64,000 nt of DNA, taken from positions 744,001 through 808,000 of the forward strand of contig NZ_PVTV01000011.1 of assembly GCF_003003055.1 (NCBI RefSeq), in the 5' to 3' direction. Both the position numbers and the translations under genes were made by a program. The notes beneath the pieces were generated by a model that saw nothing but the letters and a program-made list of their open reading frames with translations, did not search any database and was not told where the DNA came from. Of the stretch, positions 52,421 through 64,000 are shown piece by piece (within the stretch, counting starts at the first letter, position 1; each line of letters starts with the position of its first letter). This DNA is from Jezberella montanilacus. GTDB lineage: Bacteria > Pseudomonadota > Gammaproteobacteria > Burkholderiales > Burkholderiaceae_B.

Positions 52421-52480
52421 GGCGGTATTAGCGTTTAGGTCAGTTTTGTCAACCGGGTTGACGGGAAGCGCGTTATTTGA

Positions 52481-53487
52481 ATAGCATAGGCTGTGATTTA
52501 TCCGGCTGAGTGCTCCCCATCAAACCCACCGCATTCAAGAAGCTCATCGAGGACGTCGGCACCCTGTCCGCGTCCGAGTGCATCGAAGCCAAAAAGGCCC
52601 TGCGTGGGCGCGAACAGGAGGTGCAAGGCTCCTTGGTTCTACGCGAAGCGGAAGAGGCGATCAAGACCTGCCCCTAATGCGATTGCGAGCACTTCACCAA
52701 GTCAGGAGTCCGCGACGGACGGCAACGCTTCAAGTGCAAGGCATGCTCCAAAACCTTCAACGCATTGAGTGGCACTCCATTGGCAAGACTTCGCATGGCC
52801 GAAAAGCATATCGAGAATGCGGAGTGCATGGTGGATGGGCTGAGCGTGGCCGCAACTGCTGAACGATTGGGCGTCGCAGTCACCACGGCATTCCGTTGGA
52901 GGCATCGCTTCCTGCGCTCGCCGCAAAAAATACAACCTCTGCAATTGACCGGAGTGGTGGAAGCGGACGAGACGTTTTTCATCGAGTCCTTCAAGGGTCA
53001 ACGCAAGGGCCTGCCTCGCCCGGCGAAAGTGCGTGGCACCAAGGCCGTGAAGCCTGGACTGTCCAAGGAGCAAATCCCCGTGCTGGTGGCCCGCGACCGT
53101 TCGAGCGGAGCCACGCTGTCAGCCGTCATCGCCTCACGCAAGGCCAAGGACATTGGAGAGAAGTTGTCGCCTGTCCTGTCTGACGATTGCCTGCTTTGCT
53201 CGGATGGCTACAAGGCTTATGGAGTCATTGCCAAAGCTAAGGGCATCCAATCCAAGAGCGTGCCAGCAAAGAAGGTGGCTGGCAGCTACCATATTCAAAA
53301 TATAAATTCCTACCACTCGCGTCTCAAAGGATGGATGCATCGCGTCTACGGAGTGGCCACCAAGAACCTCGACAACTATCTTGGCTGGCACCGCATGCTC
53401 GATAAGGACAACTGCATGGACGGCAAAACCTTCTTGAATACCTCGTTTCGCTAGGACTCCAACCTTCTTCAAGCACCTCTATGCAAT
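52481..53487 (+). mobile_element. IS1595-family insertion sequence
   Basis: An insertion element of about 1 kb around a DDE transposase. Imperfect ends can be matched: ATAGCATAGGCTGTGATTTA (52481-52500) and the reverse complement of 53469-53487 share GCATAG and, with one gap, most of the next eight bases. No target duplication is evident, so the true ends are uncertain. The element appears richer in G+C than its surroundings. It sits between the Bug gene and a DUF924 gene and breaks neither. Confidence 0.65.
52510..53454 (+). pseudogene. IS1595-family transposase interrupted by an in-frame TAA
   Basis: Read from the GTG at 52510 the frame runs 315 codons with a single TAA at 52675-52677. The stop falls inside the zinc ribbon: Cys-Pro-stop-Cys, then FKCKACSKTFNAL. 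In related transposases a sense codon, often His, fills this place. After the stop the frame is clean: SGTPLARLRM, a helix-turn-helix, then the DDE domain with VVEADETFF, LCSDGYKAY and YHSRLKGWMHRVYGV. A TTG at 52765 could restart translation but would lose the zinc ribbon. Most likely a recent inactivating point change. Confidence 0.85.
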
Positions 53488-53541
53488 AGATGTGGCCGCC
53501 ATTGTGGATATGGCACATTTATCAGCAAAATTGAGAAACCG

Positions 53542-54087
53542 TTAGAAAGACGAGTCTGGCATTGCCAGGAATTCAATTTCGTTTGGCGTGGAGACGCGCC
53601 CCAACAATGCGTTGCGATGCGGAAACCGGCCAAAACGTTCGATGATGTCCTTATGCTTTCGTTCGAATTCCAAACTACTCTCCATGCCAGGAGCATCGAA
53701 AAGTGCCATTGCCACTAAGTGCATCATTGATGACTCGCTGTGCATGTAAGGAAGGAATAAAAATGAACGTTCTTTCACTTCAAGTTCACTGTCAGCTTGG
53801 ACTGCAACGGCGGTTTGCGCCAGCGCAAGCGCCAAAGGGTCGCATGCAAAGGCTGACGCTTGGTCCCGGTAAATGTTGCGCGAAAACTGATCAAGCACCA
53901 AAATTTCGGCTAGTCGGCCAAGTGCAGTCTCACGCCACGCAAATAGTTCGCAAGCTGCCGCCGCCTTGTGCAAAGCCCCAAACCGCCGGAAAATCAACTG
54001 GTCAAAATCCGCTGATTTCTCCCACCACTGTTTAGGCGCGATCTCCTCAAACCAGAATGAAATGACTGAGTCGGGGCTCTGGTGCAT
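53542..54087 (-). CDS. DUF924 family protein
   Basis: A 181-residue protein of the DUF924 family, recognised from VISFWFEEIAPKQWWEKSADFD at the N-terminus, LDQFSRNIYRDQASAFACDPLAL in the middle and FLFLPYMHSES later. It ends with the usual IEFLAMPDSSF, so the nearby IS did not truncate it. The fold resembles helical TPR-like proteins; no activity is established. It is nine bases downstream of a membrane protein gene on the same strand. Confidence 0.87.
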   Translation of the reverse strand: MHQSPDSVISFWFEEIAPKQWWEKSADFDQLIFRRFGALHKAAAACELFAWRETALGRLAEILVLDQFSRNIYRDQASAFACDPLALALAQTAVAVQADSELEVKERSFLFLPYMHSESSMMHLVAMALFDAPGMESSLEFERKHKDIIERFGRFPHRNALLGRVSTPNEIEFLAMPDSSF

Positions 54088-54096
54088 GGTGCTCGC

Positions 54097-54618
54097 CTAT
54101 CGGTTTGAATTATTGCGCAGTGAAGGCATGCCATACGGGGTCATGATTATCGCCAAAAACCAAATGACAGGACCGCCAACCGTCCCTGCGTTTAGTTCAA
54201 TGACACCTGAGGTGACCATGGCAAAGAGAAAGGTAAGGTCGGCAATGCCTATGATGAATACGCCTATGAAATAGGCAGGCCAAGAAGCACGATTCAAAAT
54301 GAGCCATGCCACGGCGAGGCCCAGAACTCCATATCCACCAACGTCGATGCAGAAGTTCAAAAGCAATTGGCCCTGCGCGAAGAGAGTGGTCGCATCGGTT
54401 GCTTGCAAAAAGGTCGAGCGAAGAGCCTTGCTGCCGCCAATCACCATGTTCCACTGTCCTGGCGTCCCGTTGCTGAGGTATTGGTGAATGCCTTCATAGC
54501 CCACCCAGACGTGCAATACGCCCCATAAGACGAACAGCCAAGCTCCCACCTTTGCGGCTGCTCCTAAGTTGGGTTGAGATGCAGATGTGCCATTAGGACC
54601 GGATGCGAGAAGTGTCAT
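54097..54618 (-). CDS. Small multi-spanning membrane protein, unknown function
   Basis: A 173-residue membrane protein with four hydrophobic segments (about residues 25-45, 85-105, 110-130, 135-160). I start at the ATG at 54618, preceded by AAGGA at proper spacing; 30 further in-frame codons upstream cross the LysR promoter and are not credible. I do not recognise a named family. It is divergent from a LysR regulator 124 bases away and co-directional with the DUF924 gene, so the LysR protein probably controls it. Confidence 0.75.
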   Translation of the reverse strand: MTLLASGPNGTSASQPNLGAAAKVGAWLFVLWGVLHVWVGYEGIHQYLSNGTPGQWNMVIGGSKALRSTFLQATDATTLFAQGQLLLNFCIDVGGYGVLGLAVAWLILNRASWPAYFIGVFIIGIADLTFLFAMVTSGVIELNAGTVGGPVIWFLAIIMTPYGMPSLRNNSNR

Positions 54619-54711
54619 TGCAGATTCCTTATTAAATGTTTGTGCCGTTGTAGAAGAGGTTGTATCAGTGGTTAATATATGATATTCACAATCGAAACGA
54701 AATACCATAAA

Positions 54712-54730
54712 ATAAGACTATACGTCTCAT
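54712..54730. promoter_or_regulatory. Inverted repeat in the LysR/membrane protein intergenic region
   Basis: ATAAGAC (54712-54718), spacer TATAC, then GTCTCAT (54724-54730): a 19-base dyad with one mismatch per arm pair. It is 12 bases before the LysR start. Size and place fit an autoregulatory LysR-family site; binding is inferred. Confidence 0.4.
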
Positions 54731-54742
54731 ATATGGAACGAA

Positions 54743-55624
54743 ATGAATCTTGATGACTTGTCCGACTTTGTCTTGGTGGCATCCAACGGTGGGTTTTCTC
54801 AAGCGAGCCGGATGAGTGGACGCCCGAAAGCTAGCCTGTCTCGCAAAGTCATGGATTTGGAGAGGAGCATAGGGGTGCGCCTGTTTGAGCGAAGCGCCAG
54901 GTCCGTCCAACTGACAGAGGAAGGAGAGATGCTCTTCAAGAGCACTTCGGGACCCCTCAATGACATTGCCCAAGCAGTGGACATGCTGCGAGACGGAAGT
55001 GCACAACCAAAGGGTCGATTGCGCGTTAACGTTCCATTTCTATTTGGGCTCATGTTTATGGGCCGCCTAACTGGCCAATTCAAGTCTGCCTATCCAGAGA
55101 TTGAGTTGAAAGTAACGATGGAAGATCGCGAAGTGGACCTCGTAAGCGAAGGCTACGACGTAGTGATCCGGGTTAACCCGAAAGCGGATTCGGAGCTTGT
55201 GGGGACATGCTTCCTCAGGGACCAACTTTTAGTTGTTGCGGCGCCGTCCTTGTTGGATCCGTCAACGTCGGCTACTTCCCCTCGCCAGCAGTCGCTACCC
55301 GTGGTGGTTAGGAATGCTGCTAGGAACCCCGCCACTTGGAAGATCGGGGGGAACCCCTGTCGTGAAATCGAAACGAAGCCAGTTCTTGAACTGCCGACGT
55401 TCACGATGATCCGTGATGCTGTGCTCACAGGCATCGGCGCCGCCAAACTGTCGAGCGCACTTGTCGAAGAAGATTTAGCTGCGGGCAGGCTTGTCTGTTG
55501 GGGGCCTTCATCCGCTGCTCCTGCTGAAATTTGGGCATTGCACACTTCTAGACGCTTTGCGAGCGCGAAGGTTAAAGCGTTCATGCAGTATCTGAAAACA
55601 GCTTTTCCTGCGCGACGTGGATAG
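54743..55624 (+). CDS. LysR family transcriptional regulator
   Basis: A 293-residue regulator. The N-terminal winged helix-turn-helix (MNLDDLSDFVLVASNGGFSQASR, then RPKASLSRKVMDLERSIGVRLFERSARSVQLTEEG) is of the subgroup related to AaeR/CrgA-like regulators. The effector domain begins near residue 90 (KGRLRVNVPFLFG). It is divergent from the membrane protein gene and reads away from it, the classic LysR arrangement. The nitrate operon downstream begins 363 bases later and has its own sigma-54 promoter, so regulation of that operon by this protein is less likely. Confidence 0.91.
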   Translation: MNLDDLSDFVLVASNGGFSQASRMSGRPKASLSRKVMDLERSIGVRLFERSARSVQLTEEGEMLFKSTSGPLNDIAQAVDMLRDGSAQPKGRLRVNVPFLFGLMFMGRLTGQFKSAYPEIELKVTMEDREVDLVSEGYDVVIRVNPKADSELVGTCFLRDQLLVVAAPSLLDPSTSATSPRQQSLPVVVRNAARNPATWKIGGNPCREIETKPVLELPTFTMIRDAVLTGIGAAKLSSALVEEDLAAGRLVCWGPSSAAPAEIWALHTSRRFASAKVKAFMQYLKTAFPARRG

Positions 55625-55836
55625 CAACAAACTTTATCTAGACTGACACAGAATCGGTATGGGTATTGCTATTGCTATTCTAGGATCATGAATTTTCCGG
55701 TAATGAAAGCTCTGACTGCACATCAATATTATTTCGTGGAGTTTGCGCAGTCGAGTGGTCGTTTAGTTCGAAATGGTTTTTCGATTAGCTGACCTTATCG
55801 CTAATACCGCCATGAATAACTAGCCATCAGCACTTA

Positions 55837-55853
55837 TGCACCAACTTAGTGAA
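55837..55853. promoter_or_regulatory. NtrC-like enhancer site
   Basis: TGCACC-AACTT-AGTGAA compared with the NtrC consensus TGCACC-N5-GGTGCA: the left half is perfect and the right half keeps four of six bases. It lies about 100 bases upstream of the sigma-54 promoter at 55937, a normal distance for an enhancer. Confidence 0.5.
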
Positions 55854-55858
55854 TGGGG

Positions 55859-55889
55859 AGGCAATACAGGTAAAACGAAGGTATTGCCT
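55859..55889. other. Nine-base-pair hairpin upstream of the nitrate operon
   Basis: AGGCAATAC (55859-55867) and GTATTGCCT (55881-55889) pair perfectly around a 13-base loop. It is not followed by a T run, so it is not a simple terminator. If transcription starts at the sigma-54 promoter it lies outside the message and would be a protein-binding dyad instead. Confidence 0.45.
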
Positions 55890-55936
55890 GCTTTCCCTGC
55901 CTCAGCATAGGCATAGATCACGTCTTAAGCACTGAC

Positions 55937-55954
55937 TTGGCACGATAGTTGCTT
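55937..55954 (+). promoter_or_regulatory. Sigma-54 promoter of the nrt-nir-nas operon
   Basis: TTGGCACGATAGTTGCTT matches the consensus TGGCACG-N4-TTGCW in full, with GG and GC separated by the required ten bases (GG at 55939-55940, GC at 55951-55952). The start would fall near 55964, about 24 bases before the nrtA ATG. This predicts RpoN control with an activator such as NtrC, in line with nitrogen-limited expression. Confidence 0.8.
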
Positions 55955-55987
55955 TGTTACCGGTACACCACAGACCGGAGCTCAGCA

Positions 55988-57262
55988 ATGCGCAACAAGC
56001 AACCACCCGCCCAACCCGTTGATTCTGCTCGCCGCAACATCGTTACCACTGCAGTCAAATCGCTCGGCGCAGCCAGCATCATGTCACTGGTCGATCCACT
56101 GGTTAGAGCGGGCGCTTGGGCAGCGGGCAGCGATGCACCTGAAAAAACCGAAATCAAAATTGGTTTTATTCCTCTGACAGACTGTGCCTCGGTGGTGATG
56201 GCTTCTGTCATGGAGTTTGATAAAAAATACGGCATCAAAATCGTGCCGTCGAAAGAGGCGTCTTGGCCAGGCATTCGGGACAAGTTGGTCAATGGAGAGC
56301 TCGATGCGGCTCACGTTTTGTACGGACTGATCTATGGCGTGCAGTTAGGCATTGGCGGCCCCAAAAAAGATATGTCGGTGTTGATGACGTTGAGCAACAA
56401 CGGGCAAGCGATCACGCTTTCGCAAAAACTAGCGGAGAAAGGCGTCAAGGATGGTCCGTCACTTCGCGCCTTAATGACTAAAGAGTCGCGTGAATATACC
56501 TTTGCGCAAACTTTCCCGACGGGCACGCATGCCATGTGGCTTTACTACTGGCTGGCCGCGAACGGTATTAATCCGATTAAAGATGCCAAAGTCATCACCG
56601 TTCCCCCTCCACAAATGGTTGCCAATATGCGAGTCGGCAATATGGATGGCTACTGCGTCGGGGAACCCTGGAACGCACGTGCCGTCGCAGACAAGATCGG
56701 CTTTACTGCGACAACGACACAAGCTATCTGGAAAGATCATCCAGAAAAAGTGTTGGGCTGTACCGCTGACTTTACCGTCAAATACCCAAACACCGCCCGT
56801 GCCATGACTGCTGCCATTTTGGACGCGTCTAAATTCATCGATGCTTCGGTCGTTAATCGCCGCAAAACAGCAGAGGTCATCGCGGCTAAATCCTATGTAA
56901 ATACGGACATGGACGTCATTGTCGACCGCATGCTCGGCAGATACACAGATGGTATGGGCAAAACCTGGGATGATCCAGACGCCATGAAGTTCTACAACGA
57001 CGGCCACGTCAACTTCCCCTACCTGTCAGACGGCATGTGGTTTTTGACACAGCAAAAACGTTGGGGCCTGCTGAAAGAGCATCCAGATTATCTTGCAGTC
57101 GCGACGAAAATCAATCGCATTGATATTTACAAACAAGCTGCGACGGCATCGGGTGTTGCCCTGCCTGCTACTGAGATGCGCACGTCGACGCTGATGGACG
57201 GCAAAACTTGGTCTGGCAAGGATCCTGCCGCGTACGCTGACAGCTTTGCTATTAAAGGTTGA
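55988..57262 (+). CDS. nrtA: Nitrate ABC transporter substrate-binding protein (NrtA-type)
   Basis: Receptor of 424 residues in the NrtA/CmpA/TauA-like group. The N-terminus is long and has a twin arginine before a modest hydrophobic stretch (ARRNIVTTAVKSLGAASIM), suggesting a Tat signal. The mature part starts KTEIKIGFIPLTDCASVVMA, with NrtA motifs EASWPGIRDKLVNGELDAAH and the conserved FPTGTHAMWLYYWLAANGINP. I start at the ATG at 55988, with GGAG seven bases upstream. Operon context (nirBD, nasA) supports nitrate or nitrite as ligand over bicarbonate. Confidence 0.92.
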   Translation: MRNKQPPAQPVDSARRNIVTTAVKSLGAASIMSLVDPLVRAGAWAAGSDAPEKTEIKIGFIPLTDCASVVMASVMEFDKKYGIKIVPSKEASWPGIRDKLVNGELDAAHVLYGLIYGVQLGIGGPKKDMSVLMTLSNNGQAITLSQKLAEKGVKDGPSLRALMTKESREYTFAQTFPTGTHAMWLYYWLAANGINPIKDAKVITVPPPQMVANMRVGNMDGYCVGEPWNARAVADKIGFTATTTQAIWKDHPEKVLGCTADFTVKYPNTARAMTAAILDASKFIDASVVNRRKTAEVIAAKSYVNTDMDVIVDRMLGRYTDGMGKTWDDPDAMKFYNDGHVNFPYLSDGMWFLTQQKRWGLLKEHPDYLAVATKINRIDIYKQAATASGVALPATEMRTSTLMDGKTWSGKDPAAYADSFAIKG

Positions 57263-57269
57263 CCGAGAA

Positions 57270-58148
57270 ATGCTGGTCGACCCAAAGCACGCAGAGGAGT
57301 CGTCGCTTGAACAAGACGCTGAGATGGCCGCGTTACGCGATCGTGAAACAAAGCGACTGGCGGCCCGAGACAAGGTGATGGCGGTGCTTGAGCCAGTCAC
57401 CCCGGCTCTGCTGGGCAGTTTAGGTTTTCTGCTGTTTATTGCTATCTGGCAGGCGATACATAGTGCGATTACTGAAATCCCTTCGCCCGGCTTTACTTTT
57501 AACGCAGCAGTGGATCTGTTCTCCCATCCTTTTTATTCGAATGGGCCAAATGATCAAGGGATTGGCTGGAACATCTTATCTTCCTTGCGTCGCGTCGCTC
57601 TTGGCTTCGGCTTCGCAGCCATCGTCGGCATCCCAACTGGTTTTGCGATCGGTCGATTCAAAGTCTTCGGGGCGATGACGTCACCCATCATCAGCTTATT
57701 GCGACCGGTGTCACCCCTGGCCTGGTTGCCAATTGGCCTTCTACTTTTTAAAGCAGCCAATCCAGCGGCGATCTGGTGCATTTTCATCTGCTCCATCTGG
57801 CCCATGATCATCAATACCGCCATCGGAGTGCAAAGAATCCCAGTCGATTACATGAACATTGCTCGGGTGCTGAATTTGTCAGAGTGGAAAGTATTCACCA
57901 AGATCCTACTCCCGGCCACACTTCCTTACATGTTAACTGGCGTGCGCTTATCAATCGGTACGGCCTGGTTGGTTATCGTCGCTGCTGAAATGCTGACCGG
58001 CGGTGTGGGCGTGGGCTTTTGGCTATGGGACGAATGGAACAATCTGAAAGTCGAAAACATCATCATTGCTATTTTTGTTATCGGTATTGTTGGGTTGCTG
58101 CTTGAATACTGCCTGATCTCGATCGCCAAACGATTCTCTTACGAATAA
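57270..58148 (+). CDS. nrtB: Nitrate ABC transporter permease (NrtB-type)
   Basis: Inner-membrane permease of 292 residues with about six hydrophobic segments after a charged N-terminal region of about 40 residues. The cytoplasmic coupling loop is NIARVLNLSEWKVFTKILLPATLPYML, an EAA-type motif. It begins seven bases after nrtA, so translation is likely coupled; the ribosome site itself is weak. It pairs with the ATPase at 58167. Confidence 0.91.
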   Translation: MLVDPKHAEESSLEQDAEMAALRDRETKRLAARDKVMAVLEPVTPALLGSLGFLLFIAIWQAIHSAITEIPSPGFTFNAAVDLFSHPFYSNGPNDQGIGWNILSSLRRVALGFGFAAIVGIPTGFAIGRFKVFGAMTSPIISLLRPVSPLAWLPIGLLLFKAANPAAIWCIFICSIWPMIINTAIGVQRIPVDYMNIARVLNLSEWKVFTKILLPATLPYMLTGVRLSIGTAWLVIVAAEMLTGGVGVGFWLWDEWNNLKVENIIIAIFVIGIVGLLLEYCLISIAKRFSYE

Positions 58149-58166: not shown

Positions 58167-58982
58167 ATGTCGACCCTTCATCTCGATCGCTATTTGCTCA
58201 TCCAAGGCGTCCAGCAAACCTTTAAGACCAAGAAAGGTCCTTTTGTTGCGCTCAAAGACATTGAATTGACGGTTAAGAAAGGCGAGTTCATTACCCTGAT
58301 AGGTCATTCAGGCTGCGGGAAATCCACCTTATTAAATCTGATCGCTGGCCTCACGATGCCGACCGAAGGACGTTTGATCTGTGCAGGTCGAGAGATCGCA
58401 GGACCAGGCCCCAGCCGCGCAGTCGTCTTCCAAAATCATTCGCTGTTGCCGTGGCTGACTTGCTTCGATAACGTTTATCTGGGTGTCGAACGGGTCTTTG
58501 CAGAATCTGAATCCAAGAAGCAATTGCAAGAGCGGACAGCAGAGGTAATGGCTTTGGTCGGACTGTCACACGCGCAACACAAGTTGCCACACGAAGTATC
58601 GGGTGGCATGAAGCAACGTGTCGGTATTGCACGTGCCTTGGCAATGGAGCCTCAGGTGCTTTTGCTTGATGAGCCCTTCGGTGCGCTTGACGCACTCACG
58701 CGCGCGAATCTGCAGGACGAGTTAATGCGCATCATGGCCGCGAAACAAAGTACCGCTGTCATGGTGACACACGATGTAGACGAAGCTGTCCTGCTGTCAG
58801 ACCGTATCGTCATGATGACAAATGGCCCGGCCGCAAAGATTGGTGAAATCGTGAGTGTTGCACTGGATCGCCCACGCGACCGCGTAGCATTGGCCAACAG
58901 CGTCCAGTATCAAGAGTACCGAACTGAAGTGATTGACTTTTTGTATCGAAAGCAGGGCAACCCCGCTCTCAAGGCGGCCTAA
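58167..58982 (+). CDS. nrtD: Nitrate ABC transporter ATP-binding protein (NrtD/NrtC-type)
   Basis: ATPase of 271 residues: Walker A GHSGCGKST, Q-loop FQNHSLLPWL, signature VSGGMKQRV and Walker B VLLLDEPFGALDA, then the switch histidine in VMVTHDVDEAV. It is a single-domain protein without the NrtA-like C-terminal regulatory domain of cyanobacterial NrtC, hence the NrtD name. It lies 18 bases after nrtB and ten before nirB. Confidence 0.91.
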   Translation: MSTLHLDRYLLIQGVQQTFKTKKGPFVALKDIELTVKKGEFITLIGHSGCGKSTLLNLIAGLTMPTEGRLICAGREIAGPGPSRAVVFQNHSLLPWLTCFDNVYLGVERVFAESESKKQLQERTAEVMALVGLSHAQHKLPHEVSGGMKQRVGIARALAMEPQVLLLDEPFGALDALTRANLQDELMRIMAAKQSTAVMVTHDVDEAVLLSDRIVMMTNGPAAKIGEIVSVALDRPRDRVALANSVQYQEYRTEVIDFLYRKQGNPALKAA

Positions 58983-58992
58983 GGAGATTGCC

Positions 58993-61434
58993 ATGAAAAA
59001 AATGAAACTGGTTCTGATCGGAAACGGCATGGCGGGTGTTCGCACCCTTGAAGAGCTGTTAAAAATTGCCCCTGATCTATACGACATTACTGTTTTTGGT
59101 GCCGAGCCACATCCCAACTACAACCGCATTTTGCTCTCACCCGTGTTAGCGGGTGAACAAAATCTTGAACAAATCATTCTCAATGATCTGGATTGGTATG
59201 AGAGCAATCAGATCCGTCTTCACTTAAACAAAACAGTTGTCAAGATTGATCGTAAGGCGCGTGAAGTCATAGCCGAAGATGGCACGGTTGAACCTTACGA
59301 CAGACTACTGCTAGCGACTGGATCGCTCCCCTTCATCTTGCCTGTCCCAGGCAAGGATTTGCCCGGTGTAATCGCCTACCGCGATATTAAAGACACCAAT
59401 GAGATGATCGCTGCTGCCAAGGACTATCAACATGCGGTCGTCATTGGCGGCGGTCTCCTGGGCCTCGAAGCGGCGAATGGCTTGCGAACTCGTGGAATGA
59501 AAGTAACGGTCATTCATCTAGCCGATTGGCTCATGGAAAGACAGCTCGATTCGGTTGCTGCCAATCTGCTACAGACCAGTCTGGAGAGTCGCGGTATTGA
59601 CTTCCGACTGAAGGCACACACCGAAGCCTTATTACCCAATAAAGAGGGTACGCGTGTTGCTGCGGTCAGACTTAAAGATGGGACAGAAATCAGTGCTGAC
59701 TTAGTCGTCATGGCAGCAGGCATTAAACCCAATACAGCGCTTGCGGAATCGGCTCGCATACATTGCTCGCGTGGCGTGATTGTGAACGACACGATGCAGA
59801 CCTTCGACCCTTTGGTCTATGCAGTCGGCGAATGTGCCAACCACCGTGGTGCCGTGTACGGTCTTGTGGCTCCACTCTTCGAGCAAGCCAAAGTCTGCGC
59901 CAATCACCTAGCCGAATACGGTATTGCTCGCTATCTTGGCTCATTCACTTCGACCAAACTCAAGGTCACCGGCATTGATCTTTTTTCAGCAGGAAATTTC
60001 ATGGGTGGTGAAGGCTGTGATGAAATCACGCTCGCCGACCCAGGTTCAAACGTTTATAAAAAACTTGTACTTAAAGATGACAAACTGATTGGCGCCTGTG
60101 TCTATGGTGACACCGCTGACAGTACTTGGTATTTCAAGCTCTTACGAGAAGAGAAAAATATCGCGAGTATTCGGGACTCGCTTATCTTTGGCGAAACGAA
60201 CATTGGCGATGTTGGTCACGAAGGGCATAACAAAGCCGCGGCGATGGCCGATGGCGATGAAGTTTGCGGCTGTAACGGGGTCAGCAAAGGTCGTATTGTC
60301 AAAGCGATCAAAGAAGAGGGGCTATTTACTCTGGACGACGTCCGCAAGTGCACCAAGGCAAGCGCGTCGTGCGGGTCCTGTACTGGCTTGGTCGAACAAA
60401 TTCTCATGAATTGTCTGGGCACGAATTACTCTGAGACCCCTGCAAAGAAAGCTATGTGCGCTTGCACGGACAGCTCACATGAAGATGTGCGCGTTGCTAT
60501 ACGCGAACATAAATACTTAACACAGCAGCAAATCAGGGAGAATCTTGGCTGGAGAACCCCGTCTGGTTGCGCAAGCTGCAGACCAGCATTGAACTATTAC
60601 CTGATCTCGACGTGGCCGCATGAAGCGATCGATGATCCGCAGTCACGCTTTATCAATGAGCGTGCGCATGCCAATATTCAGAAGGACGGCACGTATTCTG
60701 TCGTTCCGCGTATGTGGGGCGGTCTCACCAACTCAAGCGAGCTGCGTCGTATTGCCGATGTTGCCGACAAATACAACGTGCCGACCGTCAAAGTAACGGG
60801 CGGACAGCGCATCGATTTGCTGGGGATCAAGAAAGAAGATCTGCCGGCGGTCTGGAAAGACTTAGGCATGCCCTCTGGGCATGCGTACGGCAAATCCATC
60901 CGTACTGTCAAAACTTGTGTGGGGTCAGAGCATTGCCGCTTTGGTACTCAGCTATCGATGAACATGGGTGTGGCACTCGAACGCATGCTGTTCGGTATGT
61001 ATTCACCGCACAAGGTCAAACTCGCGGTCTCCGGTTGCCCACGCAACTGTGCCGAAGCAGGGATCAAAGACGTCGGCGTCATCGGGGTCGACTCAGGTTG
61101 GGAGATCTATGTTGCAGGCAATGGAGGCATCAAAACCGAAGTGGCTGAATTTCTTTGCAAAGTAAAAACCGATGAGGAAGTGCGCGAATACTCTGGCGCC
61201 TTCATTCAACTATATCGTGAAGAGGGCTGGTATCTCGAGCGAACGGTTCACTATGTGCAGCGCGTTGGCCTGGATTACGTCAAGAAACGAATTCTTGAGG
61301 ATGCGCAAGGGCGCAGCGATCTCTATGACCGCTTACTGTTTGCGCTCAAAGATGCCCCTGATCCCTGGAAAGATTTTGAAAAAGCGGGCGTTGACACCAG
61401 ACAGTTTCAACCAATCACCGTTCAAACCACTTAG
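58993..61434 (+). CDS. nirB: Assimilatory nitrite reductase NAD(P)H, large subunit
   Basis: Cytoplasmic six-electron reductase of nitrite to ammonium, 813 residues from the ATG at 58993 (ribosome site AAGGAGA). Order of parts: FAD/NAD(P)H domain (LVLIGNGMAGVRTLEELL; VVIGGGLLGLEAANGL), first BFD-like [2Fe-2S] motif around residue 424 (CGCNGVSKG, then CGSCTG), a second one (CACTD to SGCASCRP), then the sulfite/nitrite reductase domain. The siroheme/[4Fe-4S] cysteines are in CVGSEHCRFG (about 641) and SGCPRNCAEAG (about 682). It is followed by nirD. Confidence 0.96.
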   Translation: MKKMKLVLIGNGMAGVRTLEELLKIAPDLYDITVFGAEPHPNYNRILLSPVLAGEQNLEQIILNDLDWYESNQIRLHLNKTVVKIDRKAREVIAEDGTVEPYDRLLLATGSLPFILPVPGKDLPGVIAYRDIKDTNEMIAAAKDYQHAVVIGGGLLGLEAANGLRTRGMKVTVIHLADWLMERQLDSVAANLLQTSLESRGIDFRLKAHTEALLPNKEGTRVAAVRLKDGTEISADLVVMAAGIKPNTALAESARIHCSRGVIVNDTMQTFDPLVYAVGECANHRGAVYGLVAPLFEQAKVCANHLAEYGIARYLGSFTSTKLKVTGIDLFSAGNFMGGEGCDEITLADPGSNVYKKLVLKDDKLIGACVYGDTADSTWYFKLLREEKNIASIRDSLIFGETNIGDVGHEGHNKAAAMADGDEVCGCNGVSKGRIVKAIKEEGLFTLDDVRKCTKASASCGSCTGLVEQILMNCLGTNYSETPAKKAMCACTDSSHEDVRVAIREHKYLTQQQIRENLGWRTPSGCASCRPALNYYLISTWPHEAIDDPQSRFINERAHANIQKDGTYSVVPRMWGGLTNSSELRRIADVADKYNVPTVKVTGGQRIDLLGIKKEDLPAVWKDLGMPSGHAYGKSIRTVKTCVGSEHCRFGTQLSMNMGVALERMLFGMYSPHKVKLAVSGCPRNCAEAGIKDVGVIGVDSGWEIYVAGNGGIKTEVAEFLCKVKTDEEVREYSGAFIQLYREEGWYLERTVHYVQRVGLDYVKKRILEDAQGRSDLYDRLLFALKDAPDPWKDFEKAGVDTRQFQPITVQTT

Positions 61435-61449
61435 CCAATTAAAAAAAAA

Positions 61450-61791
61450 ATGGAAACGACTAAATCTGATTGGGTATTCGTGGTTAAACAGGCTGACATC
61501 CCTGTCGCCGGAGCGCGCGTCATTGAAGGTGCGGCGGCTGGCCCAATCGCCATCTTTCGCTCGCTCGACGACGTGGTGTTCGCAGTCCTTGACAAATGCC
61601 CTCACAAAGGTGGGCCGCTGTCACAAGGAATCGTTCACGGCCATGCGGTCACGTGTCCATTACACGCCTGGAACATCAATTTAGCTGATGGTTGTGCGTT
61701 AGCGCCCGATACGGGTTGCGCGCGTCCTTACACAACACGCTGCGAATCTGGGGATGTGTTTCTATCTGCGACTGAACTGGCGAGAGATTAA
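61450..61791 (+). CDS. nirD: Assimilatory nitrite reductase, small subunit (Rieske type)
   Basis: Rieske-fold partner of NirB, 113 residues. The [2Fe-2S] ligands are intact: C50 and H52 in DKCPHKGGPL, C69 and H72 in TCPLHAWNI. Some enterobacterial NirD proteins keep the fold but lack these ligands, so this copy can carry a cluster. It starts 15 bases after nirB in an A-rich gap with no strong ribosome site, and its stop overlaps the nasA start as TAATG. Confidence 0.94.
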   Translation: METTKSDWVFVVKQADIPVAGARVIEGAAAGPIAIFRSLDDVVFAVLDKCPHKGGPLSQGIVHGHAVTCPLHAWNINLADGCALAPDTGCARPYTTRCESGDVFLSATELARD

Positions 61792-64000
61792 TGCACGCAG
61801 CGACGGCGATCAACTCGCAGGTCAAAACTACCTGCTGCTATTGCGGGGTTGGTTGTGGCATGCTGGTCGAGACAGAGCAAGTTTCGGGCAAGTTACGCAT
61901 CAAGAGCGTCACTGGAGACCCTGCTCATCCCGCCAATTTAGGTCGACTCTGTAGCAAAGGGGCCACGCTACACCTGACGGCGCAAACACATGTTTACGAG
62001 CAGACTCGCGCCAAGCACCCTGAATGGCGACACAGTAAAGACGCAGCGCGAACCCGCGCAAACTGGGATCAGGCAAACGAGTTGGTCGCCAGTCGGTTTG
62101 CAGACATTATCAACGAGCATGGTCCGAATTCAGTGGCCTTTTATGTCTCGGGACAAATCCTGACTGAAGACTATTATGTCTTCAACAAATTGGCCAAGGG
62201 CCTGCTCGGTACTAATAATATCGACACCAATTCGCGTCTATGTATGTCAAGCGCAGTTGCTGGCTATAAGCGCAGCCTTGGCGCAGACGCCCCACCCTGC
62301 AACTACGAAGATATTGATCGCGCCAGCGTGATTTTTATTACGGGTTCAAATGCTGCCTATGCTCACCCCGTTCTCTTCAGGCGAATCGAAGCAGCCAAAG
62401 AGAAAAACCCGGCACTCAAAATTATCGTCGTCGATCCTCGACGAACAGACACGGCTCAAGCAGCCGATTTATTTTTACAAATCCTGCCAGGTACTGATAT
62501 CGCTCTCTACCATGGCATGTTGCATCTCATGCTCTGGGAAGGGTGGCTCGATCAAACCTATATCGATGCCCACACTGAAGGCTTTAGTGACTTAAAAGCA
62601 CTGGTTAAAAACTACCCCCCTAAAACGGTTGCGCAGCTCTGTGGGATTTCTGAATCTGAGCTGTTTGAAGCAGCCAGACTATTTGCCACTTCTACAGCAA
62701 CGTTATCTCTGTATTGTCAGGGTTTAAATCAATCGACTTCAGGCACAGCAAAAAATAGTGCTCTTATTAACTTGCATCTCGCCACTCGACAAATTGGCAA
62801 GGCTGGTGCGGGACCCTTCTCATTAACAGGACAACCCAACGCAATGGGTGGCAGAGAAGTTGGCGGTCTTGCCAATCAACTGGCCGCGCATCGCGACTTA
62901 GGCAATCCAGCGCATCGTCGGGAGGTTGCTGACTTTTGGGGAGTGACTGATGTCGCTGAAGCCCCCGGACTGACCGCCATCCCCATGTTTGAGGCGCTTC
63001 GCTCAGGTCGCTTGAAAGCCATCTGGATTGTTTGTACCAATCCGGCACAATCCTTACCCGACCAGACACTTGTCCATCAGGCTTTAGAAGCAGCAGAATT
63101 TGTCGTACTGCAAGAAGCCTATACCAATACTGCGACGGCACCCTACGCCGATGTGTTGTTACCCGCAACAACATGGGCTGAGAAAGAAGGGACGGTAACC
63201 AATTCCGAGAGGCGGATCTCGCGTGTGAATCCAGTGATTGCGCCACTTGGCGAATCTAAAAATGATTGGCAGATCTGCCTTGATATCGCCCGACTCATTG
63301 AGAAAAAACTTGAACGTCCACGTCGACTCAAGGACTCGTCGTTGTTTAATTTCACAACGGCTGAAGAGATCTGGCTAGAGCATCGCGCCTTGACCAAGGG
63401 CCGAGATCTGGACATCAGTGGCTTGAGTTATGAGATCCTCGACACCCAAGGTCCTGCTCAATGGCCCTATCCCGAAGGTGCAACCGAGGGGCAGGCACGC
63501 CTATACGAAGACGGCATTTTCCCAACCGCAACCGGCAGAGCAAAGTTCCTGACCGAGGACTATCGGTCAACGGCTGAAGCCACCAGTGCGCGGTATCCGA
63601 TTGCATTAACCACCGGGCGTTTGCGCGATCAATGGCACGGAATGAGTCGAACCGGCACGATTGCCAGACTATTCGCGCATGCGCCTAAACCAGCGATCGA
63701 CCTGTCTGCCGCTGATGCACAACGACTGGATTTGCACAATGATGAGCTTGTCTACGTGACCTCTGCGCGGGGCGTTCAAGTTCTGCCTGTCTCAATAACG
63801 ACCAGTGTGCGTCCGTCACAGGCCTTCGTTGCCATGCACTGGGGCAGTGAATATGTAGCGGGGCATGCGGGCAAATCAATGAGCCTTGGTGTGAACGGTT
63901 TGACCAGTTCAGCTCGCGATCCGATTTCAGAGCAACCCGAACTCAAATTTTCGGCGGTCAAAGTTACCAAGGCTAATTTACCGTGGCATCTGCACGCCTT
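61791..64000 (+). CDS. nasA: Assimilatory nitrate reductase, catalytic subunit (partial, runs off the window)
   Basis: Molybdenum (bis-MGD) nitrate reductase of the NasA/NapA family; 736 codons are visible and no stop is reached. The N-terminal [4Fe-4S] site is C15-x2-C18-x3-C22 (CYCGVGCGM) with C54 in GRLCSKG. The molybdopterin regions follow (DTNSRLCMSSAV with the conserved Cys, GQPNAMGGREVGGLANQL), and the C-terminal cofactor domain with RLRDQWHGMSRTGT. It is coupled to nirD by one base. The missing end may include a C-terminal BFD-type [2Fe-2S] domain as in Klebsiella NasA; the window cannot show this. Confidence 0.95.
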   Translation, partial: MHAATAINSQVKTTCCYCGVGCGMLVETEQVSGKLRIKSVTGDPAHPANLGRLCSKGATLHLTAQTHVYEQTRAKHPEWRHSKDAARTRANWDQANELVASRFADIINEHGPNSVAFYVSGQILTEDYYVFNKLAKGLLGTNNIDTNSRLCMSSAVAGYKRSLGADAPPCNYEDIDRASVIFITGSNAAYAHPVLFRRIEAAKEKNPALKIIVVDPRRTDTAQAADLFLQILPGTDIALYHGMLHLMLWEGWLDQTYIDAHTEGFSDLKALVKNYPPKTVAQLCGISESELFEAARLFATSTATLSLYCQGLNQSTSGTAKNSALINLHLATRQIGKAGAGPFSLTGQPNAMGGREVGGLANQLAAHRDLGNPAHRREVADFWGVTDVAEAPGLTAIPMFEALRSGRLKAIWIVCTNPAQSLPDQTLVHQALEAAEFVVLQEAYTNTATAPYADVLLPATTWAEKEGTVTNSERRISRVNPVIAPLGESKNDWQICLDIARLIEKKLERPRRLKDSSLFNFTTAEEIWLEHRALTKGRDLDISGLSYEILDTQGPAQWPYPEGATEGQARLYEDGIFPTATGRAKFLTEDYRSTAEATSARYPIALTTGRLRDQWHGMSRTGTIARLFAHAPKPAIDLSAADAQRLDLHNDELVYVTSARGVQVLPVSITTSVRPSQAFVAMHWGSEYVAGHAGKSMSLGVNGLTSSARDPISEQPELKFSAVKVTKANLPWHLHA

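Follow-up and report, generated by a model that had tools for sequence, protein, structure and literature searches.

Genomic context of the nitrate assimilation genes

The window, i.e. the whole stretch of 64,000 nucleotides of Jezberella montanilacus DNA that was analysed, ends in a run of genes for nitrate uptake and assimilation (nrtABC-nirBD-nasA, Table 1). The last of these is named from its match and its neighbours because its NCBIfam matches lie below the cut-off. A search of the own genome with the nrtA protein returned one match, nrtA itself. A LysR-type regulator gene (54743-55624, forward strand) ends 313 bases above the promoter that precedes nrtA. Further upstream, about 3.4 kb (52421-55800) lie between DHDPS-like and tripartite-carrier genes and the promoter region; this stretch holds a transposase-like open reading frame (ORF; 52765-53454) and the LysR gene. 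In L216, a relative with a short nrtA leader, DHDPS-like and tripartite-carrier binding-protein genes are located directly 5' of nrtA. These neighbouring genes were named by eye.

Table 1 Features of the nrtA promoter region and of the downstream genes (window coordinates)
Feature	Position	Strand	Basis
NtrC-type dyad, TGCACCAACTTAGTGAA	55837..55853	+	11/12 consensus positions, centre 93 bases above -24 element
Sigma-54 promoter -24/-12, TGGCACGATAGTTGCT	55938..55953	+	exact consensus match, ortholog conservation
Predicted 5' untranslated leader, ~24 bases	55964..55987	+	start inferred from -12 element
Likely ribosome-binding site GGAG, 7 bases before ATG	55977..55980	+	by eye
nrtA, nitrate ABC transporter substrate-binding protein type, ATG start, 424 aa	55988..57262	+	Pfam NMT1_2
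nrtB, permease	57270..58148 (start approximate)	+	TIGR01183 over cut-off
nrtC-type ATP-binding protein	58167..58982	+	TIGR01184 over cut-off
nirB, assimilatory nitrite reductase large subunit	58993..61434	+	TIGR02374 over cut-off
nirD-like small subunit	61450..61791	+	TIGR02378, slightly below cut-off (73.1 vs 74.65 bits)
Molybdopterin oxidoreductase, probably assimilatory nitrate reductase (nasA/nasC type)	61791..63998, runs off window end	+	NCBIfam below cut-off

A probable sigma-54 promoter upstream of nrtA

Promoters of the sigma-54 (RpoN) type follow the consensus TGGCAC-N5-TTGCW, with GG and GC ten bases apart. A sequence-only reading of the locus had reported a full match with this spacing, which was confirmed: in TGGCACGATAGTTGCT, GG occupies 55939-55940 and GC 55951-55952, with ten bases between them, and the context is that of a sigma-54 promoter. 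The site is intergenic, overlaps no ORF of ≥80 aa, lies a short distance before nrtA (TGG to ATG, 50 bases) and is kept in orthologs. With the start point of a sigma-54 promoter set at ~12 bases after GC, transcription of nrtA is predicted to begin at ~55964. The promoter had been placed 24 bases before nrtA; the element itself ends 34 bases before the ATG, and the value of 24 holds for the distance from the predicted start to the ATG.

Scanning the window for TGGCACGNNNNTTGCW with ≤3 mismatches gave 133 matches compared to 134.6 in shuffled sequences, and the weak matches are regarded as noise because the total equals the shuffled expectation. TGGCACGATAGTTGCT is the sole site without mismatch among the 133; by an arithmetic estimate, ~0.015 exact matches are expected per window. 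In the whole genome, the looser pattern TGGCACNNNNNTTGCW has 18 exact matches, compared to 6 for the reversed control pattern. Nine of these were classed as promoter-like on the basis of a well-placed gene start downstream. The genes that follow are, by eye, glnK, glnA, amtB, nrtA, urtA-like, cobA and three genes for peptide/amino-acid binding proteins. This class is not clean, as four of its nine sites (those of amtB, cobA and two of the binding-protein genes) share sequence with an ORF of ≥80 aa. The remaining nine were classed as not promoter-like, since they coincide with an ORF and no well-placed start follows; one of them, C2:214472, precedes an amidase-like frame and may be a promoter should this frame start further in.

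NrtA orthologs were collected from 61 genomes, from 32 genomes of the genus and from a named genome collection (alignment A1, best 80 of 592 confirmed loci). Upstream regions were read for 95 loci, namely these best 80 of 592 and 15 others; exclusion of two duplicates (L064 = L010, L105 = L018) and of two loci with short upstream sequence (L120, L011) left 91. A sigma-54 score of ≥17.5 (of 20.7) was reached in 82/91 upstream regions (shuffles: mean 8.4, maximum 15) and a score of ≥19.7 in 69/91 (shuffles: mean 0.28, maximum 1). Nine orthologs are without a site, five of them from Polynucleobacter (L075, L084, L090, L091 and L094, 70-72% identity) and one from Cupriavidus (L082); the rest (L078, L080 and L089) are from MAGs without a genus name.

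A group of nrtA-like matches with 34-37% identity, L026-L038 among them, was first taken for a second class of nitrate transporters with short leaders. In the two operons that were read further (L221, L222), the gene after the nrtA-like gene is cyanase by eye, and the class was therefore omitted from all nitrate counts. These NrtA-like ABC transporters have sigma-54 sites upstream in other members of the genus, and the NrtA-like/cyanase operons probably represent NtrC-controlled cyanate use.

NtrC-type dyad and regulatory machinery

The consensus of the NtrC box is TGCACY-N5-RGTGCA. The dyad TGCACCAACTTAGTGAA lies 101 bases above the TGG of the promoter and is one of two sites with a single mismatch in the window. 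With ≤2 mismatches, the window contains 11 NtrC-type sites vs 12.2 in shuffles. Since such sites occur by chance, the dyad alone is not significant and needs outside support; it gains weight from its conservation in orthologs and from the boxes before glnK, glnA and amtB. For the ortholog comparison, the best box in the 200 bases above the sigma-54 site was scored in 82 regions, a set in which the two duplicates were retained and from which loci were removed if their site was weak, their start unassigned or their sequence too short. A dyad of ≥10/12 was found in 45 of them (shuffles: mean 3.7, maximum 9) and one of ≥11/12 in 18 (shuffles: mean 0.23, maximum 1). Among the other short-leader species, the dyad scores 11 in L010 and L013 and 10 in L014, and L011 has too little upstream sequence. 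The NtrC-like dyad proposed about 100 bases upstream is of a type conserved among these regions.

Within the own genome, the top box score is 10 at glnK, 10 at glnA, 11 at amtB, 11 at nrtA, 9 at the urtA-like gene and 9 at cobA. The three remaining promoter-like sites have boxes of 7-8, no better than shuffles (average ~8), and the nine exact sites that are not promoter-like have boxes of 7-9. Perfect palindromic boxes (GCACY-N5-RGTGC) were also searched for. They gave 14 strand matches (7 places) in the genome compared to 16 for the reversed control, and none lies at the listed sigma-54 sites. Perfect palindromes are therefore no marker of NtrC targets in this genome, and degenerate boxes were scored instead.

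A strong hairpin without a T run is located between the NtrC box and the promoter (55854-55904). It is built on a nine-base perfect inverted repeat (AGGCAATAC/GTATTGCCT). Comparison with the window and 18 loci of the own genome gave matches of chance size only (12-18 bases) and no comparable copy.

The genome encodes one rpoN (TIGR02395, 411.8 bits, cut-off 277.35). The sigma-54 activator domain (PF00158) has five matches, a single one of which is strong (236.6 bits); this protein is NtrC (TIGR01818, 671.6 bits, cut-off 558.6), and by eye an ntrB-like kinase gene is found just before ntrC. The other four matches (20.8-39.8 bits) are ComM-, ClpA-, ClpB- and RarA-like by eye. If the promoter is of the sigma-54 type, NtrC is the only evident activator, as it is the sole strong PF00158 match. 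Control of the nitrate genes by NtrC and RpoN, which is of a known kind, is very likely. The earlier prediction of control by nitrogen limitation via RpoN/NtrC is supported by the conserved elements, by rpoN, by ntrC with its ntrB-like neighbour and by the lack of a second strong activator match. Published mutants fit such control: according to the parts of the reports available, a Burkholderia cenocepacia ntrC mutant fails to use nitrate and shows reduced expression of its nitrate genes (PMC5491218), and a Paraburkholderia phymatum rpoN mutant is unable to use nitrate (PMC5748707).

Antitermination leaders in relatives

The distance from TGG to the gene start was determined for 82 non-duplicate loci with a site score of ≥17.5 and an assigned start. 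It is 100-228 bases in 75 of them and 337 bases in L086, where the start is uncertain. A short distance of 50-73 bases was found in six loci, namely L009 (the window's own locus), L010, L011, L013, L014 and L096. The 34 long leaders that were printed contain, as far as read, a hairpin with an AACGGC-like loop, a second hairpin with an AAAGGC or AACGGC loop and a terminator able to compete with the second hairpin. In an alignment of 24 long leaders, loop positions 1 (A) and 4 (G) are invariant in both loops. ANTAR targets are described, in the text available of PMC3369931, as paired hexaloops with A at position 1 and G at position 4. Because the invariant A1/G4 hexaloop pair matches this published rule, the tested long leaders are, as judged from their sequences, ANTAR-type antitermination leaders of the kind read by NasT or NasR.

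No leader with two hexaloop hairpins and a terminator was found at the window, where 34 bases separate the -12 element from the ATG. The region around the start of nrtA (55963-56010) folds worse than most shuffles, 190/200 of which are at least as good. A covariance model built from the 24 leaders (R1) was applied to 49 sources with a limit of E 1. It matches 22 of 23 held-out long-leader loci at E ≤ 1.2e-5 and misses L135; the held-out set excludes the training duplicate L018 and counts the more distant L025. R1 has no match in the window, in the short-leader loci L009, L010, L011, L013, L014 and L096, in the Polynucleobacter loci L075 and L084 or in 11 loci of the own genome (L046-L054, L060, L063). 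Its weaker matches are mostly on the opposite strand of leaders, with one of 27.4 bits elsewhere in L068.

Among 14 loci compared with the Rfam narK RNA (RF03032) to E 5, six with long leaders match, namely L017 with a score of 43.6 above the curated 43.2 and L022, L018, L021, L012 and L020 below it. There is no match at this threshold in the long-leader loci L016, L019, L023 and L024, nor in the four short-leader loci L009, L010, L013 and L014 (4/4). At the curated score, 12 more loci yielded one match (L069, 44.8). Across the 61 genomes, 16 match at E ≤ 0.1, a single one of them exceeding the curated score, and several of the weak matches lie at a distance from nrtA. A genome-wide search with strict filters found no match in the own genome, which is weak evidence alone because 66 of 485 candidates were scored there under these filters.

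Shorter patterns were also tried. The leader core motif GGACAANGGNGTCC has 53 matches in the window with ≤3 mismatches, compared to 50.6 in shuffles, and none in 53508-56277. With one mismatch, GACAANGGNGTC has 110 forward and 129 reverse matches in the own genome, compared to 91 and 112 for the control pattern. The short core motif being too weak for searching, R1 and Rfam were used instead.

A Sulfuricella MAG (L096) likewise has a short distance of 73 bases from its sigma-54 site to nrtA and no R1 leader, a possible further independent loss of the leader.

Nitrate sensors

The 61 genomes were searched for the ANTAR domain, the NIT domain and the NasT protein, and NasR was recognised as NIT plus ANTAR. 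The window's genome (completeness 100, 19 contigs) encodes one ANTAR protein, which carries an AmiR_N domain and, by eye, is encoded beside an AmiC-like gene. No NIT domain was found in it, and the best NasT match (6.5e-8) covers query residues 7-111 only. The sequence-only reading had noted that neither nasT nor nasR lies in the window and had suggested a look for nasST elsewhere; in the ANTAR, NIT and NasT searches, this absence extends to the whole genome, with neither NasT nor NasR found.

Of the 61 genomes, 16 contain nrtA at E ≤ 1e-100, and 15 of them were compared; G003, with its nrtA truncated at a contig end, was set aside. L025 (G040, 39% identity), which has a long leader and NasT, was left out of this comparison. 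NasT or NasR is encoded in 10/10 long-leader genomes vs 1/5 short-leader genomes (Fisher p = 0.004, kinship ignored). The one short-leader genome that has kept NasR is G028, whose leaders lie at a second nirBD locus. G017 and G019 each encode one ANTAR protein of 202 aa, taken as AmiR-like by length and score, and no ANTAR protein was found in G013 (completeness 89). The alignment of NasT in G046 continues across one stop.

A putative second sigma-54 unit (cobA-nirC)

Another exact sigma-54 site of the own genome (G000:C3:20379, L053) has its TGG 27 bases 5' of the first cobA ATG, and this short distance puts the predicted start point almost on the ATG. By eye, nirC-like and phosphatase-like genes follow cobA. 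The counterpart in G028 and G008 has the order nasR - cobA - nirB - nirD - nirC - phosphatase, where cobA of G028 was identified by its position. Leaders precede nirB in both genomes (43.7 and 28.0 bits, respectively) and, weakly, cobA (18.5 and 19.2); G026 has nirB after nasR, again with a leader (24.7). No nasR, nirBD or leader was found in the 11-kb stretch L053 of the own genome. Nitrate-specific control has probably been lost at both the nrt and the cobA-nirC units of this species.

History of the leader

In a 41-row NrtA tree, the leader-bearing G016 (L012), in which NasR adjoins, branches inside the window's genus and sits between the window and the four other short-leader species. Support is 100/93 for G016 with these four species, 100/96 for the four and 97/88 for all six. 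On the adjacent branches (Alcaligenaceae, Cupriavidus), leaders are long wherever a site was found. With G016 between short-leader species and long leaders on these branches, the simplest explanation is that the leader was lost twice; alternatively, it may have been lost once and regained once, or transfer may be involved. On balance, we favour the view that within the genus the layer of nitrate-specific antitermination has left the nrt operon at least two times, which would leave an NtrC-only, nitrate-blind operon, and that in the own genome the cobA-nirC unit was reached as well.

Discussion

The observations are best accounted for, with good confidence, by an NtrC-activated sigma-54 promoter that would drive nrtABC-nirBD-nasA in a nitrate-blind manner, with the leader and its sensor apparently gone and initiation probably the only checkpoint. 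When nitrogen is short, NtrB would phosphorylate NtrC, which would bind the dyad, loop and open the promoter. Transcription would then begin ~24 bases 5' of nrtA and read through the operon. In most of the examined relatives, a second checkpoint is predicted, in which the leader RNA terminates transcription unless NasT or NasR senses nitrate or nitrite and the antiterminator is stabilised. At the window, leader and sensor appear to be gone, which would make initiation by NtrC probably the sole checkpoint. We infer NtrC binding, the start point, read-through of the operon and nitrate-independent expression from the DNA sequence. As the nitrate-sensing RNA switch was not found, the genes probably answer nitrogen hunger alone. 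The window operon looks like a two-checkpoint system that was reduced by removal of the nitrate checkpoint.

It is unlikely, if conceivable, that control by NtrC and RpoN is as described but nitrate is sensed otherwise, e.g. by the LysR-type regulator or by an unrecognised sensor. The LysR gene shares the strand of the operon and ends close above its promoter, and the sensor search covered the ANTAR, NIT and NasT types; however, this neighbour is not conserved in the short-leader loci L216 and L218, where other genes precede nrtA (by eye), and its best NCBIfam matches (LysR model, YafC, GcvA) are all far below the cut-off. We give very little credence to a main transcript from an upstream sigma-70 promoter, with the hairpin at 55854-55904 as a leader element of an undescribed kind. 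The region 55850-55905 does fold well (-21.2 kcal/mol, z -2.96; 1/200 shuffles as good), but the single sigma-70-like match (55703-55732) is near shuffle level (0.7) and no terminator-like site was found in 55560-56060. The hairpin also falls within the spacer that separates two conserved elements, the NtrC box and the promoter, and could not be made out by eye when the four other short-leader relatives were aligned with the window. That the -24/-12 match arose by chance and the operon is controlled otherwise is hardly credible: weak matches reach the level of shuffles, half of the 18 exact genomic sites were classed as not promoter-like and the reversed pattern still gives 6, but the nrtA site is exact, well placed, free of ORF overlap and matched by a good site in 82/91 orthologs.

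The predicted nitrate-blind control by NtrC and RpoN may be compared with several known systems, each considered from the parts of the reports available. In Klebsiella oxytoca, nasFEDCBA combines initiation by NtrC/sigma-54 with antitermination by NasR (PMC5424462, PMC3369931). The window operon resembles it in that assimilatory nitrate genes are activated by the Ntr system under low nitrogen (here predicted), whereas the nitrate-responsive leader and NasR of Klebsiella were not found here. Similarly, the NasST-controlled nas operons of Azotobacter, Pseudomonas putida and Paracoccus (PMC5424462) join general nitrogen control to nitrate assimilation genes; in contrast to them, no NasT and no terminator-bearing leader were found here. 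The NtrC regulon of Burkholderia cenocepacia H111 (PMC5491218) likewise contains genes for nitrate/nitrite reductase and transport in a betaproteobacterium, and these require NtrC and sigma-54, as is predicted for the window operon. Predicted sigma-54 targets of Pseudomonadota comprise nitrate-type ABC transporters (COG0600, COG1116, COG0715) and nitrite reductase, and ANTAR proteins (COG3707) are listed there as sigma-54 controlled in beta- and gamma-Proteobacteria (PMC12316311); the loss of a leader or of an ANTAR regulator is not treated in the available part of that work. The Rfam narK RNA is present in the leaders of several nrtA relatives and was not found at the window locus. Control of nitrate assimilation by NtrC and RpoN is well known, and the apparent absence of leader and sensor is the new part; the open-access literature searched, as far as its text was available, contained no report of nitrate operons that lose the leader while keeping NtrC control.

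Close relatives appear to differ by one clean module, with the same type of promoter and activator site and with or without a nitrate-reading RNA. The value of nitrate-specific control becomes testable by comparing these natural variants. Some species are predicted to make the costly nitrate reductase whenever nitrogen is short, whether nitrate is present or not. If the repeated loss within the genus is true, these species would offer a natural experiment on the conditions under which a cell can skip sensing a nutrient that it imports.
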